This document shows positions 26,827 through 35,780 of a DNA stretch of 64,000 bases, in pieces. A program made the translations under genes and the position numbers. Positions within the stretch are counted from its first letter, which is position 1. Each line of letters opens with the position of its first letter. The DNA comes from Planctomycetota bacterium (GTDB taxonomy: Bacteria > Planctomycetota > MHYJ01 > JACQXL01): assembly GCA_016235865.1 (NCBI GenBank), contig JACRIK010000019.1, forward strand, positions 1-64,000. Reading direction: 5' to 3'. The notes under the pieces are model-generated. The model was not told where the DNA came from, ran no database searches, and saw only the letters and a list, made by a program, of their open reading frames with translations.

Positions 26827-28254
26827 TCAGGCGGGTGATGCGTCTTCCTGAGCCGGCGCCGACTCATCCGGAATCGGTGGTTTTTCGTCCTCCGGAATGG
26901 TAATGCCCAGGGCCTTCATGCGGTTGGTGAGGGTATTTCGGTGCACGCCCAGCGCGTCGGCGGCCACGTTGCGGTTATTGTTTGCCTTGGACAGGGCATT
27001 TCTGATGTAGTTTTTTTCAAAGCGGGTCATGGCCTCATCGTAGGAAACGCCGTCTTCGAGAATATAATATTTGGAATCGCCCTGCTTGGTGATTTCCACC
27101 GGCAGGTCGCTTACCGAGATGGTATTATTCTTGGCAACTACCAGGAGGCGTTGGATGACGTTTTCCAGTTCCCGGACATTACCCCGCCAGTCATAGGTAT
27201 GGAAGAAGTTGAGCACCTCCATGGGGATTTCTTTTACCCGGCGGTGGAGTTCGTGGTTATAGATATTCAGGAAATACTTGGCCAGGAGCGGGATGTCGTG
27301 CCGGCGCTCCCTGAGGGGCGGCACGGAGAGCAGAATGATATTCAGCCGGTAAAACAGGTCTTCCCGGAATTTGCCGCTCTTGACCATCTCACCCAGGTCC
27401 AGGTTGGTGGCGGCGATGACCCGGACGTCGATGGGGATTTGTTTCATTCCGCCGACCCGTTCGACGGTTCGTTCCTGGAGGACGCGCAGGAGCTTGACCT
27501 GGAGGGTGAGCGGCATGGCGCTGATTTCGTCCAGGAAGATGGTGCCGTGGTTGGCCAGTTCGAATTTTCCGGTACGATGGTAAGAGGCGCTGGTAAAAGC
27601 GCCCTTTTCGTGGCCGAACAGCTCGCTTTCCATGAGTTCGGCCGGAATGGCGCCGCAGTTGACCGGGACAAAGGGGCGGTCTTTGCGCTCGCTCTGGCGC
27701 CAGATTTCCCGGGCCACAATTTCCTTGCCGGTGCCGCTTTCGCCGGTAATCAGCACGGTGGCGTTGTTCTCGGCCACCTTCTTTATCAGGTTGGCCAGTT
27801 CCAGCATTGACCGGCTCTGGCCGATGAGTTTGCGCTCCTTTTCAACGCTGATGGAACGGTGATAGCGGACCTCGTGCCTGAGCCCTGATTTTTCGACGGC
27901 ATTTTTCACGACCAGTCCGAGCTTTTCCACGTCAAAGGGCTTGACCAGGTAGTCACAGGCGCCCAGTTTCATGGCCTCGATGCCGCTTTCCAGCGAGCTG
28001 TTGCCGGTCAGGACGATGACTTCCATGTCCGGATTCGCCTCTTTTACCTTCTTGAGGAGTTCCAGTCCGTTCATATCCGGCAGGCCCAGGTCCAGGATAA
28101 CCAGGAGGATTCTTTCGCTATTCAGGACGGCCAGGCATTCGGCGGCGTTGGAGGCGGTGTGGAGTTTGTAGTCGCCTTCCAGCGCGGCGCCCAGGCTCCT
28201 GAGCACCATCGGGTCGTCATCGACAGCCAGAAGTTCAGGCATATTTGTTTTCAT
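26827..28254 (-). CDS. NtrC-type sigma-54-dependent response regulator
   Basis: The 475-aa product has a receiver (LLAVDDDPMV, LVILDLGLPDMNG, YLVKPFD; residues 1-120), an AAA+ domain (GESGTGKEIVAREIW Walker A, GTIFLDEISAMPL Walker B, arginine-finger region FREDLFYRLN; about 145-375) and a Fis-type DNA-binding helix-turn-helix (NNRNVAADALGVHRNTLTNRM). The sigma-54 contact loop reads GAFTSA rather than GAFTGA. It starts 4 bases after the 28259 sensor kinase stop, so that kinase is its partner. Confidence 0.92.
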   Translation of the reverse strand: MKTNMPELLAVDDDPMVLRSLGAALEGDYKLHTASNAAECLAVLNSERILLVILDLGLPDMNGLELLKKVKEANPDMEVIVLTGNSSLESGIEAMKLGACDYLVKPFDVEKLGLVVKNAVEKSGLRHEVRYHRSISVEKERKLIGQSRSMLELANLIKKVAENNATVLITGESGTGKEIVAREIWRQSERKDRPFVPVNCGAIPAELMESELFGHEKGAFTSASYHRTGKFELANHGTIFLDEISAMPLTLQVKLLRVLQERTVERVGGMKQIPIDVRVIAATNLDLGEMVKSGKFREDLFYRLNIILLSVPPLRERRHDIPLLAKYFLNIYNHELHRRVKEIPMEVLNFFHTYDWRGNVRELENVIQRLLVVAKNNTISVSDLPVEITKQGDSKYYILEDGVSYDEAMTRFEKNYIRNALSKANNNRNVAADALGVHRNTLTNRMKALGITIPEDEKPPIPDESAPAQEDASPA

Positions 28255-28258
28255 ATGG

Positions 28259-30034
28259 TCAAATCATTATATCAGTTTGCGGTTCAGTCGGCAATTTAAT
28301 AGTGAATTCCGTGCCCTGATTCTTTTGGCTGGTAACCGATATGGCGCCCTGGTGCTGTTCGATGATTTCCTTGCAGATGGTCAGGCCCAGTCCCAGGCCG
28401 GCCTTTTTGGAGGTCTGGAACGGCTCAAAGAGCGTGGCCAACTGGGCCGCATCCATGCCGGTGCCGGTGTCGCCGACCTTGATTATCATCCCGCTACCAT
28501 TCAGTCCGGCCGAGATGCGCAATGCGCCGCCCGGGGCCATGGCCTGCAGGGCGTTCTGAATCAGGTTGATTAATACCTGCTTGAGCTTATCCGGATCGGC
28601 ATTTAAGAAGAGCTGGTCGGATTTGATGTCGATATCGGACTTGATGTTGTCCCTGAACATCTGCTCCCGGAACAGGGTTAGCGTCTCGTTAATCAGCCCG
28701 GCCAGGTTAATCCGGTTGACATTCAGCCGCCGGATGGCCGAGAAGTCGCTTAAGGCGCCCATCATCTTTTCCAGCCGGACCATTTCATGCGGCACGGTGT
28801 CGTTGAACTGGGCGATGAACTTGGGGTCCTGGTAGCGCTTGGGCAGAAGCTGGACAAAGGTCTTGACGCCGACTAAGGGGTTCCTGATTTCGTGGGCAAT
28901 CTTGGAGGTGGCCGTGCCGATGGCCGAGAGTTTTTCCAGCCGCTTGGCCTGGCGCAGCCGGGTAATCATGTTATCGAAGGCATTGAGCAGCCCGCCCATT
29001 TCGTCGGTCCGGGCTGATTTGATGACTTGGTCCAGGTTGCCGGCGCCGACCTGGTCGGTGGCGTCAATCAGGGTCTTTACGGGCCGGGTGACTTTATTGG
29101 CAATCATCAGCCCGACCACAATGGCCGTCAGGATAGCCAGCCCGATAATAAGAACCGCCTTGGCCTGCATCCGGTTGGAGAAGGCATAGGCGTCCTTGAC
29201 CGGCTGGCGGATAATCAGGCCCCAGCCAAAGGCGCTGATGGGCGCATAGGCGCTCAGCCAGCCGCTGGTCAAGTCCTCGCGGCTGCCATTCTGCCCGCCC
29301 AGCACGGCCTGAACCACCGGCGTCCCTTTGAGGTTCTCGGACTGATAGACCTTACGCTCCTCCTTGTGGACCAGGACATAGCCCTGTTCGTCCACAATCA
29401 GAATCTGGCCCTGGCCCAGTTTTATCTTCCCGATGATTCCCCAGATGCTGTTTAATTTGACCTCGGCCATCAGCATGCCGGATAGACCTTGGGGCGTATT
29501 TATCGGCGCGGTGATGGTGACATAAGGCAAATGTTCGGCAGAGAAATAGACCTGGGAGATGGATGAGGAATTTAACAACCCCCTATCCCCCTTTATTAAG
29601 GGGGAATTTACTAACCACTCCCCCTTAGCAAAGGGGGGCAGGGGGGTTGTTCCCTGGGATTTTATATCCGAAGAAATTATTTCCTTCCCATCCGCGGACA
29701 CAATAGCCACCCGCTCAAAGAGATGCGGGTAATCCGTGACCATCCGGTATAACAGCAATTTCTGGGTCTCGGAATCTCTTATTCCTGTGGCGCCCAGGAT
29801 GCCGGCGGTATTAACCAGCAGCGCCTGAGGCTTATCTATGAAGTCGTTGAGTTGTTGGGCCGTATTGCGGCAGATTTCCTGGTAGTCTCTCAAGACCGAA
29901 TCCCGGACCGCCGCCCGGCTGGCCGTGATTAACAGCCCGCCCAGCGCCATCAGTGAAATCAGCATCAACAGTCCAAAGGCCAGGCCAATCTGTTGCCAGA
30001 GCCGGCGCGGGGTCAACTTCTCAATAAAATTCAT
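28259..30034 (-). CDS. Sensor histidine kinase with extracytoplasmic Cache-like domain
   Basis: The 591-aa protein has a first membrane helix (IGLAFGLLMLISLMALGGLLI), a periplasmic Cache-type sensor (about 40-290; LFERVAIVSADGKEII, YAPISAFGWGLIIRQP), a second helix (VLIIGLAILTAIVVGLMI), HAMP, HisKA (KIAHEIRNPLVGVKTFVQ) and ATPase (NLIQNALQAMAPGG, GLGLGLTICKEIIEQHQG) domains. The two-component pair with the NtrC-type regulator is certain from spacing. A 78-bp AACAACCCCC repeat is inserted in frame and adds about 26 residues (PLPPFAKGEW...SPLIKGDRG) to the sensor domain. Confidence 0.92.
   Translation of the reverse strand: MNFIEKLTPRRLWQQIGLAFGLLMLISLMALGGLLITASRAAVRDSVLRDYQEICRNTAQQLNDFIDKPQALLVNTAGILGATGIRDSETQKLLLYRMVTDYPHLFERVAIVSADGKEIISSDIKSQGTTPLPPFAKGEWLVNSPLIKGDRGLLNSSSISQVYFSAEHLPYVTITAPINTPQGLSGMLMAEVKLNSIWGIIGKIKLGQGQILIVDEQGYVLVHKEERKVYQSENLKGTPVVQAVLGGQNGSREDLTSGWLSAYAPISAFGWGLIIRQPVKDAYAFSNRMQAKAVLIIGLAILTAIVVGLMIANKVTRPVKTLIDATDQVGAGNLDQVIKSARTDEMGGLLNAFDNMITRLRQAKRLEKLSAIGTATSKIAHEIRNPLVGVKTFVQLLPKRYQDPKFIAQFNDTVPHEMVRLEKMMGALSDFSAIRRLNVNRINLAGLINETLTLFREQMFRDNIKSDIDIKSDQLFLNADPDKLKQVLINLIQNALQAMAPGGALRISAGLNGSGMIIKVGDTGTGMDAAQLATLFEPFQTSKKAGLGLGLTICKEIIEQHQGAISVTSQKNQGTEFTIKLPTEPQTDIMI
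29574..29651. repeat. AACAACCCCC MITE-like repeat inside the sensor kinase gene
   Basis: Starts AACAACCCCC and ends GGGGGTTGTT, 78 bp (26 codons), with CCCCCTTTATTAAGGGGG and CTCCCCCTTAGCAAAGGGGG inside. It keeps the frame and lies in the periplasmic domain. Confidence 0.8.
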
Positions 30035-30055: not shown

Positions 30056-30128
30056 AACAACCCCCTTAATCCCCCTTTAATAAGGGGGAATATTACTCCC
30101 CCTTAACAAAGGGGGCCGGGGGGTTGTT
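30056..30128. repeat. AACAACCCCC MITE-like repeat, copy at the radical SAM 3' end
   Basis: Complete 73-bp unit, AACAACCCCC to GGGGGTTGTT. Its end abuts the stop codon of the radical SAM gene (TAA at 30128-30130). Confidence 0.8.
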
Positions 30129-31564
30129 TACAACGCCCCTCTTTCATAATCCATCTTAAGCAGCTGGGGAAATATCTTTTCGTAGTATTCCTTATCGCAG
30201 GCCGGTTTGGTATAGTCCGAGTGCTTGAGCTGGGCGATATAGCGGCACCCGCCGCCGCACATCGGCACATAGGCGCAATCCCCACACTCCTTCCACGGCT
30301 TCAAGGCCAGGAACTCCGCATAGCGGTGATTGAACCGCCTCTCCCGGACATTGCCGATGCAGAACTGCTCCCGGCCCACGAAGGCCTCGCATTTATAGAT
30401 GTCGCCCGCGGGGTCAATCACCAGCATAGAATCATCCATGGTCATCGGGCAGGCATTGACCTTGACCGATGACGGCGTCCGGTATCCGCGCTGAATCAAT
30501 TCCTTTTCTAATTTGATGCCCTCCTCGGCCAGTTCGCCGGAAAGTTTGTGGCAACCCACCGGCTCAACGGTTATCCCTCTCACCCTGTCCGCTCCCCCCT
30601 CACCCTTCCCTCTCCCCTCTGGGGAGAGGATAGGTGAGGGGCCCAGGCGCGAGACCACCGGCGCAAAGAGCACTCTGGCAATGCGCTTATTTAAGCCCTT
30701 TTGCTCTAAGTAGTCAAGCAATCGGTGCAGTCCGGCGATGTTGGCCCGGTCAAAATTGGCGCCCAGTTCGACCTTTACCCCCACACCAATGGAATTGGTG
30801 TGGGGGTGAACTTCCATACCTGTAATAGACATAATATTAGCCATTATCGTCTCAAACGAGCCGCGGCCGTCTAAATACGGGCGTCTCCGGTCGTGTACCT
30901 CTTTGTCGCCGTCTAATGTTATGCGGATGCTGGTCAGTCCGAGCGGCGTGAGTCGCTCAATAATATCCTTCCTGACCAGCGAGCCGTTGGTTATCATCCC
31001 GAAGGAGAATTTGATGCCCTTTTCCGCAGTCCATTGCTGGAGCGCCGAGGCAATCTTGATTATGGCGGCCGGATTCATCAGCGGCTCGCCGCCGTAGAAC
31101 ATCAGCCGGATTTTGGGCGACTGCTTCTCCTCGGCCTTATGCTTAAGATAGGCGATGACCTGGTCCGCGGTCTGGTCGTCCATGGTCTGTTGCTCTTTAA
31201 CCCCCTCCTCAAAGCAATAGGTGCAGGCAAAGTTGCATTTGAAGGTAGTTAAAATCGTGGCGTGCAAAGGCCGCGGCCGGAACTTTATTTCATCAAACCA
31301 ACTCTCTAAGACCTTGTCCTCGTCTGTTTCTTTATCAACGATAATGCCGGAGTCCTTGAGTGTGTTGAGGCACTGTTGCTCTTCCGGCGACAAAGAAACG
31401 CCGTTGCTGATAATCTTCCCGATAAAATCCCTGACCTCTTTATTTACCCCCACACCAATTCCATTGGTGTGGGGGTGAATCCTGAGCACGCCCTGGGTCC
31501 GGGTATTGTAGACCAGCGAATCGCCATTATTCCCATAGAAAACGGTGTATTTAGATAATTTCAT
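30128..31564 (-). CDS. Radical SAM/SPASM peptide maturase
   Basis: The 478-aa protein has the SAM cluster motif C110-x3-C114-x2-C117 (CNFACTYCFEEG), the MFYGGEPLMNP strand, and a SPASM domain with many cysteines (VNACPMTMDD, IYKCEAFVG, CGDCAYVPMCGGGCRY, KPACDKEYYEK). This layout belongs to enzymes that modify ribosomal peptides, and the N-terminus (FYGNNGDSLVYNTRTQGVLRI) resembles geopeptide-type maturases. A small Cys-Cys peptide gene lies just upstream (31632-31736). Three palindromic repeats sit in frame: PHTNGIGVGVN at residues 31-41, about 251-262 (HPHTNSIGVGVK), and 305-328 (PSPILSPEGRGKGEGG). Confidence 0.9.
   Translation of the reverse strand: MKLSKYTVFYGNNGDSLVYNTRTQGVLRIHPHTNGIGVGVNKEVRDFIGKIISNGVSLSPEEQQCLNTLKDSGIIVDKETDEDKVLESWFDEIKFRPRPLHATILTTFKCNFACTYCFEEGVKEQQTMDDQTADQVIAYLKHKAEEKQSPKIRLMFYGGEPLMNPAAIIKIASALQQWTAEKGIKFSFGMITNGSLVRKDIIERLTPLGLTSIRITLDGDKEVHDRRRPYLDGRGSFETIMANIMSITGMEVHPHTNSIGVGVKVELGANFDRANIAGLHRLLDYLEQKGLNKRIARVLFAPVVSRLGPSPILSPEGRGKGEGGADRVRGITVEPVGCHKLSGELAEEGIKLEKELIQRGYRTPSSVKVNACPMTMDDSMLVIDPAGDIYKCEAFVGREQFCIGNVRERRFNHRYAEFLALKPWKECGDCAYVPMCGGGCRYIAQLKHSDYTKPACDKEYYEKIFPQLLKMDYERGAL
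30596..30641. repeat. CCCCTCACC-CTCTCCCC palindrome inside the radical SAM gene
   Basis: CCCCTCACCCTTCCCTCTCC, then TCT-GGGGAGAGG-ATA-GGTGAGGGG. It is translated as ILSPEGRGKGEGG on the minus strand. Confidence 0.8.
30778..30806. repeat. CCCCCACACCAAT palindrome inside the radical SAM gene
   Basis: Perfect 13-bp arms (CCCCCACACCAAT, ATTGGTGTGGGGG) with loop GGA. Translated as PHTNSIGVGV. Confidence 0.85.
31447..31475. repeat. CCCCCACACCAAT palindrome, second copy in the radical SAM gene
   Basis: Perfect 13-bp arms with loop TCC, translated as PHTNGIGVGV near the N-terminus (residues 31-40). Confidence 0.85.
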
Positions 31565-31631: not shown

Positions 31632-31736
31632 TTATTCATCACTGCCCAAACTGGAAAAGGTAAATTTCGGGCAACATCCCAGGTTCTCGGTTGATTCCTG
31701 GCCTTTACGGATTACTTCTATCTTCAATTGGCTCAC
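31632..31736 (-). CDS. Candidate RiPP precursor peptide
   Basis: An unannotated small frame lies 68 bases before the radical SAM start, on the same strand. It reads MSQLKIEVIRKGQESTEN, then LGCCPKFTFSSLGSDE, and stops at 31632. It has a charged leader-like half and a Cys-Cys core with aromatic and Ser residues, as in small radical SAM substrates. GAGGGG precedes it: spacing suits a TTG start at 31727 (31 aa), while GTG at 31736 (34 aa) directly follows the site. Such a position and composition suit a substrate of the SPASM enzyme, but no homologue could be checked. Confidence 0.55.
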   Translation of the reverse strand: MSQLKIEVIRKGQESTENLGCCPKFTFSSLGSDE

Positions 31737-31759
31737 CCCCTCTTACTCGCTGTTAGCCC

Positions 31760-31821: not shown

Positions 31822-31907
31822 CCTTACGAGCCGAGTTACAATTCGTCCACCCCCCTGCAGGAGGGATGAACCCATGGGTGAGCCGCGCGGCTTTGTTATT
31901 TAGTTGT

Positions 31908-32011
31908 AACAACCCCCTTAATCCCCCTTTGTTAAGGGGGAATTTCCTATTTACTCCCCCTTAGAAAAGGGGGCCGGTCCCTCTGACGGGATCCCGTTGA
32001 GGGAGGGGTTG
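31908..32011. repeat. AACAACCCCC MITE-like repeat overlapping a gene 3' end
   Basis: Runs from AACAACCCCC through CCCCCTTTGTTAAGGGGG and GGTCCCTCTGACGGGATCCC to GGGGTTGTG. The stop codon of the solute-binding protein gene (31951) lies inside it, so the last residues (APFSKGE) are repeat-encoded. Confidence 0.7.
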
Positions 32012-32649
32012 TGTCCTTTGCTAATCTTCCATTCCTTTATCGTATAAAACGGCATTGCCGCCGAGAAGAATCTGTCCGTATTGCTAAACCGCCGGCTGAT
32101 GGCGCATAGATTCGGCAGGCAATACAGGAATGTCCCGGACTGCTCTTCATATACCAGCCGGTGCAGGCGATGATAGAGTTCCTTCCTCTGGTCTATGTCC
32201 TGAATAGTATTGGCCTGCTCAAAGAGTTTATCTATCGCGGGGTTTGTGTATGGCCAGAGTTTGCCGTCCCGTTGTTGTTTGTTTGAGTGCCAATTCGGCT
32301 CTAATTCGGCAGATATCTTAATGCTGATAACAGCCGCGCCGGCCTGCTGAACCAATTCCTTGTCCTGATTGCTGTGGTCGTATGTTTTTATGTCGCATCG
32401 GATGCCGATTTTGTATAAATCCTGATAGATGATTTTGGCGATGGTCCCGGTGACGCGCTCCTTGGGGTCAACTAACAGCGTAAAACGGAACTGGACGCCG
32501 TCTTTTTCTAATACCCTATCATCTCTCATCTCCCATCTCTCATCTTTTAGTATTTTGAGCGCCAGGGCTGGGTTATATTCCAGCGGCTTGACATCGGGAT
32601 TTGAGAACCAGGCGCCCGGCAGGAACGGCCCGGTGGATTGATAGACATT

Positions 32650-32710
32650 CCCCTCGCCCCTCACCCTGCCTTTTTCCCCCTAACCCTGCCCTCTCCCCTC
32701 TGGGGAGAGG
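32650..32710. repeat. CTCTCCCC palindrome carrying the amber codon
   Basis: CCCCTCGCCCCTCACCCTGC, then CTCTCCCCTCTGGGGAGAG. It differs from the copy in the radical SAM gene by carrying an in-frame TAG. Confidence 0.75.
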
Positions 32711-32986
32711 GAAAACCCTTCCACCTTATTGATAATCTCCGGGATGTTGATGGCGTGCGCCAAAGCCCGGCGCACCTGCTTATCCTTAAAGAGCGGATGC
32801 TCCGGGTTGTAGTCAATCATATAGGTATAGATGGACGGGAAGTTGTAGACCCGGAATGCCGGGTCTCTGGCGATGGTCTGATACTGCTCGGTGTTGAGGA
32901 ACTGAATCATATCAATCTCGCCCTTCATAAAGGCGGAGAAGTATTCAGGGAAGGTGTCGTAGCCGCGTGCCTCTATTCTATTTACT

Positions 32987-33016
32987 CCGCATTCCGCATT
33001 CTGCATTCCGCATTCG
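32987..33016. repeat. CCGCATT simple repeat inside the solute-binding gene
   Basis: CCGCATT, CCGCATT, CTGCATT, CCGCATT; translated as ECGMQNAECGVN. A related GGAATGTGGAGTGCGGAATG lies at about 50325. Confidence 0.6.
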
Positions 33017-33108
33017 TAATAGTCCGGGTTGGCTTCTAAAATGATGCTGATAGTGTCATCCTTGGTCCGCTCGACAAACCGAAAAGGCCCGGTGCCGACG
33101 GGGTTTAC

Positions 33109-33135
33109 CCCCGCCCCGGATGCTTTCGGGGTGGG
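33109..33135. repeat. CCCGCCCCG-CGGGGTGGG palindrome inside the solute-binding gene
   Basis: CCCGCCCCG, GATGCTTT, CGGGGTGGG. Translated as HPTPKASGAGVN. Relatives with the same ATGCTTTCGGGG lie at about 22740 and 39145. Confidence 0.65.
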
Positions 33136-33767
33136 ATGTATCGGGAAGTTCATAAGATTTATAAACGATGCCTGGGTTTCGTTCAGGGTTACGGTGAAGG
33201 TATATCTGTCTTGGGCCTTGACTGTTTTTATCATAGTATAATTCTCCCGCCAGGGGGAGTTGTTAGCCGGGTTTAGGACTGCATTATAGGTAAACGCGCA
33301 GTCCTGGGCCGTGAGTTCCACATTGTCGTGGAACCTGACCCCTTTTCTCAGATAGAATGTATAGGTCAAACCATCGTCAGAGACCGACCAGCGCTCGGCT
33401 AAGTCCGGCTCCGGCATCATCCGTTCGTTGATGCGGACCAGGGCGCTAAAGACCAGGTCAGCCAGATTGACCGAAATCGTGCTGTTGCTGATAATCTGGT
33501 TGATGGGTCCGGGTGGGCCGCCCAGTCCGCCGATTCGTAAGGTTCTCTCACCTCCGGTTTCTGTCTTGCCGCATCCGATTAGGATAAGCGGCAAGAAACA
33601 TATAAGCAAGTAGCGTGCCAGTTGGCTGATAATTGGGCGAGAATATTTTCGGTTCATATAATTCTTATTATAACTTGTTACCGGGCGTGTAATAAGGAAA
33701 ATAAGAAAATATTATGGTTTTATGGGGTAAATCTGGCCCGAAAATGAGGATGTGTTCTGAGAAGGGT

Positions 33768-33890: not shown

Positions 33891-35780
33891 TTAGAATTCG
33901 TATTTTACCCCGAATTCGACGGTCCGGCCGGGCATAGGCAGGAGTTCGTGATACCAGTAGTCGCGGTCAAAGATGTTATAAACGCCGAGGAATATAGATG
34001 AAGGCATTGTCCTATTATCGGAGCCGGCCGGGATATTGTAATTAACCAGCATATCATAGATGAACCTGCGGTCATTGGGGTTGCTTGAGGCCGGCTCGTT
34101 CCAGAATCTGTAATTGCCATTGAGGGTCAGATTAAGGTTCTTCTGGTATTGATAGTTGAAGCCGAGGTTATAGGTAAGTTTGGCCACACCACCGCCCTGG
34201 ACAATTCCGTCGGTCTGGCGGTCCTGGACCCGGTTCAGGGCAGAGCCCATCTGGGCCTGAAGCCCTTCTGCAACATTATATTTTGCTTCTGCCTCCACAC
34301 CCTGCCGGCGCACGGCCGAAATATTCTTCATCATATTGGATGGGAAATCATAGACCACCAGGTCATTGACCTCGGCCCGGTAATAGGCGAATTTAAGGAA
34401 CAGGTCTTTTGCGGGTTTGGTATCCAACGAGGTTTCATAGACGGCCGGGGCCCGCTCGGCCTTCAAGTCCGGATTGGGCGAGATGACATTGATGTATTTG
34501 TAAATCAGAGGCGGTGCGTTGAACGCCTTGGAATACAAAACGCGCAGGTATGAGTCAAGCGGCATCTGATAAACCACGCCGGCCGAAGGGCTGAATTGGG
34601 AGCCGTAGGCCTGGTTGTCGTCATAGCGCGCGCCGAGATTGACTGATAATTTATCTCCGGCTATGCCGGTCTGCAGATAATTGGCATAATAACCCTGGCG
34701 GCTGAATCTTTCCTTGCCGGGCATCAGGTCTGATTCCAGCGAATCCCAACCCAGGTCAGCGCCTGAAGAAAGGGTCTGGCTGTCGTTCATCTTTATCGTG
34801 GACTGCAGGTCCAAGCCGGTAAAGATATTCTGGCTGGCTACCCTGGCCAGCAGCGCCGAACCCGGAATGGCAAAGTCCTCGACCTTGCTGTCCTGGTTGG
34901 AGGCCTTGACCGTGGCGCTGAATTCCCATGCTTTGTCCGGGACAATAAAGAATTTAAGCGAGCCGTATCTGGCGAAATAGGTCAAGTCCTCGCTGTAGCC
35001 CATGGTCGGAAATTCAAAACCGCCCATATCCGAGCCGGTATAATGCAGAGCGGCCTCCAGATAGGCGTCGTCTGAGAGCGCGTAATTAACTTTGGATGAG
35101 AATTTCTGGCTGGCGATGGCGCTATTGGCCCGGAACTCGCTATTGCTGTCCAGGCCGCTCATCCAGACCAGATAGGAAAACTTATCTGACTTACCTGACA
35201 GCTCCAAATTTTCCCGCTGGAAATTGTAGGCGCCGCCGGCCGCGGCCAGCGAAAAAACGGCCTGGAATGGTTTGACTGTAGAGGGCTGTTTGGTGATGAT
35301 ATTGACCACGCCGCCTAAGGACGAACCCCAGACCGAGGAGCCAGAGCCCTTGATTATTTCTATGCGCTCCACGTTCTCAATGGGAATCTGGGACGGGTCG
35401 GCAAAGGCCATGCCCTGGGAATTCATCAGGACGCCGTCCACCATCACCCGGACGTGGCCGGCCGAAGAGCCCTGGATGCTCAAGGAAGACGGCTGGCCGA
35501 CCGGGCCTCTTAACTGGATGTCAATGCCGTTCACGAAATTAAGGGCCTCGGCTAAATTATGCGCCGGCAGGTTGGCTAATTCCTTTGACGACAGGACGGT
35601 GATATTCATCGGCAGGTGCAGGGAACTGTCGCCGGTCCGGCGGGCGGTGACTACTATCTCATCGGTCCGGGTGGACGCTCGGCTGAGCTCAGTCGAAGCC
35701 ATGGGCGTTTCCGGATATGACAGGGAAATCGATGACCAGACGACAACTAAAGCAATTATATAATATCTCGCAAGAAGCAT
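33891..35780 (-). CDS. TonB-dependent outer-membrane receptor, BtuB-like
   Basis: The 629-aa protein has a signal sequence, a TonB box region (TDEIVVTARR), a plug domain (LAEALNFVNGIDIQLRGPVG, VMVDGVLMN, IENVERIEIIKGSGSSVWGSSLGGVVNIITK; residues 45-170) and a 22-stranded barrel ending in the aromatic VEFGVKYEF. It takes up a ligand such as a cobalamin, metal chelate or peptide; the ligand is not readable. The start of the mature part (MASTELSRASTRTDE) overlaps a GCTCGGCTGAGCTCAG repeat. It lies 6 bases after the double receiver gene. Confidence 0.9.
   Translation of the reverse strand: MLLARYYIIALVVVWSSISLSYPETPMASTELSRASTRTDEIVVTARRTGDSSLHLPMNITVLSSKELANLPAHNLAEALNFVNGIDIQLRGPVGQPSSLSIQGSSAGHVRVMVDGVLMNSQGMAFADPSQIPIENVERIEIIKGSGSSVWGSSLGGVVNIITKQPSTVKPFQAVFSLAAAGGAYNFQRENLELSGKSDKFSYLVWMSGLDSNSEFRANSAIASQKFSSKVNYALSDDAYLEAALHYTGSDMGGFEFPTMGYSEDLTYFARYGSLKFFIVPDKAWEFSATVKASNQDSKVEDFAIPGSALLARVASQNIFTGLDLQSTIKMNDSQTLSSGADLGWDSLESDLMPGKERFSRQGYYANYLQTGIAGDKLSVNLGARYDDNQAYGSQFSPSAGVVYQMPLDSYLRVLYSKAFNAPPLIYKYINVISPNPDLKAERAPAVYETSLDTKPAKDLFLKFAYYRAEVNDLVVYDFPSNMMKNISAVRRQGVEAEAKYNVAEGLQAQMGSALNRVQDRQTDGIVQGGGVAKLTYNLGFNYQYQKNLNLTLNGNYRFWNEPASSNPNDRRFIYDMLVNYNIPAGSDNRTMPSSIFLGVYNIFDRDYWYHELLPMPGRTVEFGVKYEF

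Follow-up and report, generated by a model that had tools for sequence, protein, structure and literature searches.

A Cys-Cys peptide encoded upstream of a SPASM radical SAM enzyme in Planctomycetota: a probable RiPP precursor in a sister branch of the geopeptides

Does a short reading frame just upstream of a SPASM radical SAM enzyme encode the substrate of that enzyme, and what might become of the product? The question is raised by a 64,000-nucleotide stretch of planctomycete DNA (hereafter the window), for which the original prediction proposed a Cys-Cys peptide on the minus strand as the precursor of a new RiPP. Re-reading of 31632-31736 on that strand bore out the predicted frame, strand, sequence and spacing. 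The frame reads GTG MSQLKIEVIRKGQESTENLGCCPKFTFSSLGSDE, encodes 34 aa from the GTG at 31736, and is separated by 67 bases from the maturase ATG at 31564. By homology, the gene starts at the TTG at 31727, since the GTG sits within the Shine-Dalgarno stretch and the ATG of the relatives falls at approximately the aligned position. The minus strand of the window carries, in order, a TonB receptor, a family-5 lipoprotein, the peptide, the maturase, a dCache kinase and an NtrC-type regulator:

33891-35780, minus strand: TonB-dependent receptor; a receptor adjoins geopeptides in most loci
31951-33657, minus strand: family-5 solute-binding lipoprotein (PF00496); directly precedes the peptide in 3/3 planctomycete loci
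31632-31727, minus strand: precursor peptide gene, 31 aa from TTG, MKIEVIRKGQESTENLGCCPKFTFSSLGSDE; leader approximately residues 1-17, core from Cys18-Cys19
30128-31564, minus strand: 478-aa radical SAM/SPASM maturase, in a branch sister to TIGR04280; N-terminal beta3-alpha3 arrangement in the model, CteB-like overall
28259-30034, minus strand: dCache-HAMP sensor histidine kinase, downstream of the maturase; a homologue is likewise placed in genome G005, another kinase in G003
26827-28254, minus strand: NtrC-type response regulator; a homologue is likewise placed in G005 and G003

The identity of the enzyme as a SPASM radical SAM protein holds. It contains a PF04055 domain, its best NCBIfam model is TIGR04280 (311.9 bits, 7e-93), and the CxxxCxYC motif together with eight further cysteines is conserved in 14 relatives (invariant C110, C114, C117, C338, C372, C392, C427, C430, C436, C440 and C456). 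In the structure model (pLDDT 80), residues 7-95 form three strands followed by three helices, a pattern that resembles leader-binding RREs. The best PDB match of the model is CteB, over most of its length. CteB has an N-terminal leader-binding domain.

Among 59 related genomes, homologues of the maturase were found in three, each from the order of the window genome, with identities to the window copy of 57% (G005), 49% (G003) and about 50% (G008). The G003 contig stops approximately 300 bases upstream of the maturase, and the peptide comparison therefore covers G005 and G008 only. In both, a peptide is encoded upstream of the maturase (G005, MKVIKKGEERLSEKNQVCCPAFAFPYNGYDEEE; G008, MKLEIIRKAASEENVGCCPPMLFPGISFDE). 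Lack of conservation beside homologous maturases, named beforehand as an argument against the prediction, was thus checked, and the frame is present in 2/2 readable relatives. A profile built from the G005 and G008 peptides alone recovered the window frame blind in the 2.67 Mb genome (E = 1.6e-8; next match 1.4), and phmmer searches with each relative's peptide against 1835 window frames ranked it first (E 7.6e-7 and 1.5e-4; next 2.1). In the five genomes of the same order that lack the maturase, the peptide was not found (best profile match E 1.97). Invariant across the three genera are Ile6, Lys8, Ser12 and Asn15 of the leader and Cys18-Cys19-Pro20, Phe24, Asp30 and Glu31 of the core, which gives a common core CCP...F......DE; codon alignment shows 5-8 synonymous differences per pair alongside these conserved residues. 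The order binding protein-peptide-maturase is kept in three genera, with the TonB receptor upstream where the contig reaches. At the level of sequence the frame at 31632-31736 (minus strand) is confirmed as a real gene, far beyond chance as judged from the relatives' peptides and the profile searches. Its proposed role as precursor for the adjacent SPASM maturase, and hence modification of the 31-residue peptide by the neighbouring radical SAM enzyme, is strongly supported by conservation beside homologous enzymes and blind genome-wide recovery.

We compared the planctomycete system with the geopeptide family, defined in NCBIfam by models for the peptide (TIGR04229) and the maturase (TIGR04280). 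TIGR04280 is the best NCBIfam model for 4/4 planctomycete maturases, 80-110 bits above the next, and all four score below its 400-bit cut-off (324, 305 and 269 for the relatives). For the peptides, TIGR04229 gave no match at E 1 with the window sequence and none at E 10 with that of G005, and no NCBIfam or Pfam model matched over cut-off. Peptides beside maturases that do pass the TIGR04280 cut-off likewise match TIGR04229 weakly or not at all. A maturase-alignment scan of genome contigs revealed homologues in Nitrospirota, Geobacteraceae and Desulfobulbaceae; a short Cys-Cys peptide is encoded upstream of almost every one. The TIGR04280 cut-off was passed in 9/11 distant genomes tested and, in the class to which the Geobacter-type genome G392 belongs, in 101 of the 277 genomes sampled. 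A CC peptide lies just upstream in 35 of the 38 loci over cut-off that were read; the locus search required CC, so that the informative figure is 35/38 and not the presence of CC within the 35. The geopeptide alignment has the consensus (I/V)xVL(D/E)xGx...CC, after which comes a short tail that varies.

In the maturase tree the planctomycete and geopeptide clades are each supported at 100/100, and both are joined with two Acidobacteria rows at 95/92. Comparison of the two peptide profiles by hhalign gave a probability of 84% (E 7.7e-6) over the leader and CC. Single-sequence support was uneven: shuffles reached the real score against the geopeptide profile in 1/300 cases for the window peptide, 34/300 for G005 and 269/300 for G008. 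Given separate clades, profiles that align and uneven single-sequence support, the planctomycete maturase and peptide appear to lie beside the curated family as a sister branch and not within it. Novelty in the original sense thus applies in part: the family is already named geopeptide in NCBIfam, whereas the planctomycete branch is divergent and falls below both cut-offs. Our search of the open-access literature found no paper on geopeptides.

The two branches share a short peptide just upstream of the maturase, a leader that appears to follow the form (I/V)xV(L/I)xxG, and the Cys-Cys pair; loci of both include a TonB receptor together with a solute-binding protein and a kinase, to which a response regulator is often added. 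They differ in the core, which is CCP...F......DE with an acidic end in the window branch but CC followed by Gly/Ser/Thr-rich sequence, often with a basic end, in geopeptides. They differ also in the binding protein (PF00496 versus PF04392) and in the 5'UTR, which is conserved and strongly folded in the planctomycetes, with none such seen upstream of geopeptide genes.

Several further observations were made while reading these loci. A second geopeptide-like frame (EKIIILDEGIDDPIGTDGIGCCFVMYLPFRSM) in L015 (5522-5704) follows the maturase gene, so that a single enzyme may act on two precursors; no other frame scored higher against TIGR04229. Two to four geopeptide maturases are encoded in each of several Geobacter-type genomes. 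In L181 (7614-12162, genome G658) two are near neighbours, a truncated copy among them, and the gene between them resembles, as judged by eye, a REP-associated transposase. In the Acidobacteria relatives L014 and L018, a CC peptide beside the maturase was not found. In L014 (5701-10832) the genes for a regulator, a maturase, a family-5 binding protein and a dCache kinase follow one another; the precursor for this maturase may be of another kind or be encoded at another site.

Gene neighbourhood offers a clue to function. G005 carries binding protein, peptide, maturase, kinase and regulator in the window's order. The G008 locus runs from the end of a TonB receptor (recognized by eye from its C-terminal sequence) through a short inserted gene to the binding protein, peptide and maturase, and the G003 locus comprises maturase, kinase and regulator. 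The NtrC-type regulator is the likely partner of the dCache-HAMP kinase. At geopeptide loci a TonB receptor, co-directional or divergent, is present in 26/29 short flanks and 10/10 wider loci, and the ten wider loci include a PF04392 binding protein in at least eight and a kinase in at least eight. That this linkage outlasts shifts in gene orientation and the exchange of one binding-protein family for another points to a functional module, and the neighbourhood suggests that TonB receptor, binding protein and kinase may take up and sense the product. Neither an exporter nor a dedicated leader peptidase belongs to the core conserved among the loci examined.

Regulation of the peptide gene may involve RNA structure, for which three minus-strand features are relevant:

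31876-31891, minus strand: GCCGCGCGGCTCACC(C), a conserved element of the 5'UTR and a complement of the Shine-Dalgarno stretch; the peptide genes of G005 and G008 have it upstream too
31730-31743, minus strand: Shine-Dalgarno stretch GAGGGGGTGAGCC, the 3' arm of a proposed sequestering helix
31593-31623, minus strand: strong 12 bp hairpin between the peptide and maturase genes

The 5'UTR element (GCCGYG..CGGCUCAYC) is found in 3/3 planctomycete loci, approximately 120-160 bases upstream of the start, and occurs once per genome in the three genomes, always upstream of the peptide. Its 3' part can pair with the Shine-Dalgarno sequence GGUGAGYC and its 5' part with the same CGGC, alternative pairings of the kind seen in two-state switches. 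As a lead from sequence comparison, the arm CGGCUCAC would be the partner of the Shine-Dalgarno arm in a putative switch. An 8-mer complementary to the Shine-Dalgarno stretch and common to all three loci arose in 1/400 shuffles, and no 9-mer passes the same test; the comparison involves three sequences only, with one-sided changes, and the intergenic DNA of the window genome is palindrome-rich. We rejected the folding z-score alone as evidence for the element because strong structure is common in upstream stretches of the window (mean z of 38 control genes -2.2, lowest -9.8), and set aside helix length alone, which is only mildly unusual. Rfam searches of the peptide upstream regions returned no credible match. 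Different but comparable hairpins separate the peptide and maturase genes in both relatives; all three hairpins are possible attenuators or mRNA stabilisers, which would suit unequal expression of the two genes.

As to chemistry, the closest solved relative of the window maturase by both sequence and model fold is CteB, the SCIFF maturase (PDB 5WGG, 5WHY; TIGR03974), which similarly has radical SAM and SPASM clusters. The structural alignment has only about 20% identity, and SCIFF peptides carry six Cys in 45 residues in contrast to the single Cys pair of the window peptide. The CefB (Cys-every-fifth, NF038107) and Clo7bot (TIGR04334) models, which carry the names of enzymes that mature short Cys-containing peptides, come among those ranked next in NCBIfam; they score 225 and 164 against cut-offs of 600, and unlike the substrates of these enzymes the window precursor is neither Cys-every-fifth nor Cys-rich. 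PapB (NF047865, ranthipeptide) is likewise a radical SAM/SPASM enzyme acting on Cys peptides, and its model gives the window maturase 160 bits (cut-off 340). PapB-type motif spacing is much shorter than the Cys19 to Asp30 distance of the window peptide.

Overall, we suggest that the frame is probably a geopeptide-type RiPP precursor, with crosslinking, uptake or sensing of the product and 5'UTR gating as proposed below. The leader (approximately residues 1-17) would likely dock on the RRE-like N-terminal domain of the maturase, whose SAM cluster and SPASM auxiliary clusters likely make a radical crosslink involving the Cys pair. This would most likely be a thioether to a residue of the PxxxF...DE tail, a chemistry favoured by the nearest families, CefB, Clo7bot, PapB and CteB. 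PapB forms its crosslinks between Cys and Asp or Glu (PMC9413430), so that the invariant Asp-Glu in the planctomycete core becomes a candidate for the acceptor role; a further candidate is Phe24. The residues originally put forward for crosslinking were the Cys pair, Phe and Lys, and they fare differently: the Cys pair is present in 3/3 planctomycete peptides and at 35/38 geopeptide loci and one Phe is invariant, whereas the position of Lys 21 holds K, A and P in the three peptides, which makes a Lys-based link unlikely. The trimmed product may leave the cytoplasm and be imported through the TonB receptor, perhaps carrying a metal, and may then be sensed through the binding protein and kinase, providing feedback control. 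Pairing of the 5'UTR element with the Shine-Dalgarno site might in addition gate translation of the precursor.

Other accounts of the locus deserve consideration. One holds that the ORF is due to chance, or is an upstream leader ORF with no connection to the maturase; small frames are common, and the intergenic DNA here contains many palindromes. Against it stand conservation of the protein in three genera beside the same enzyme, the blind genome-wide E-value given above, a good Shine-Dalgarno site and synonymous codon changes, and we regard it as very improbable. If the frame is a precursor, its modification could instead consist of carbon-carbon crosslinks of the cyclophane type on Phe, with the Cys pair acting as a metal ligand or disulfide. 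Domain-level relatives among the SPASM enzymes make such products (the window maturase matches the YhhB and FxsB models weakly), and the invariance of Phe24 in the planctomycete peptides would fit. However, the better-matching families CefB, Clo7bot and PapB are thioether or Cys-peptide maturases, the best structural match, CteB, is a thioether enzyme, and geopeptides outside the planctomycetes often have no Phe after CC while nearly all retain CC itself. Cyclophane formation thus seems distinctly unlikely, and a thioether involving the Cys pair is preferred.

The fate of the product can also be read differently. The peptide might never be secreted and serve as a modified cofactor or regulator of the receptor, binding-protein and kinase module, in the cytoplasm or periplasm. 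The exporter is missing from the conserved core while sensory genes are nearly always there, as this account would have it, but the genome may encode exporters or proteases at other sites, and TonB-dependent receptors import external ligands. We consider an unsecreted role unlikely and favour release of the trimmed product followed by TonB-dependent uptake.

A broader scheme can be drawn from these elements, though it is speculative and, taken as a whole, rather doubtful: the geopeptide branch might make a Cys-Cys peptide that is recovered by TonB receptors in the manner of a metallophore or autoinducer, its uptake being reported by a dedicated binding protein and a two-component system, with translation in the planctomycetes gated by a new cis-regulatory RNA. 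If true, this would tie a RiPP class to TonB sensing in metal-reducing and in anaerobic bacteria. Geopeptides have so far been database family names; their range now extends to Planctomycetota with a different core, and the co-occurrence of TonB receptor, binding protein and kinase across phyla yields a testable transport/sensing hypothesis for an orphan peptide family. The family is common in Geobacter-type organisms, and since these include cultivable, genetically tractable members, the transport/sensing question can be addressed directly.

Finally, the locus is marked by repeats. Relative to its homologues, the window maturase carries three in-frame repeat insertions (approximately residues 33-44, 251-262 and 308-332) that leave the frame intact, and most low-confidence parts of the model (33-40, 252-258 and 307-340) coincide with them. 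The window binding-protein gene consists of two same-frame pieces with an in-frame TAG inside an inserted palindromic repeat; its homologues in G005 and G008 are intact. Short palindromic repeats lie in frame inside coding genes at 30774-30810, 31443-31480, 30609-30660 and 32664-32710, and the kinase at 28259-30034 seems to carry one as well (TPLPPFAKGEWLVNSPLIKGDRGLL). These in-frame repeats recall the palindromic elements found inside Rickettsia genes.
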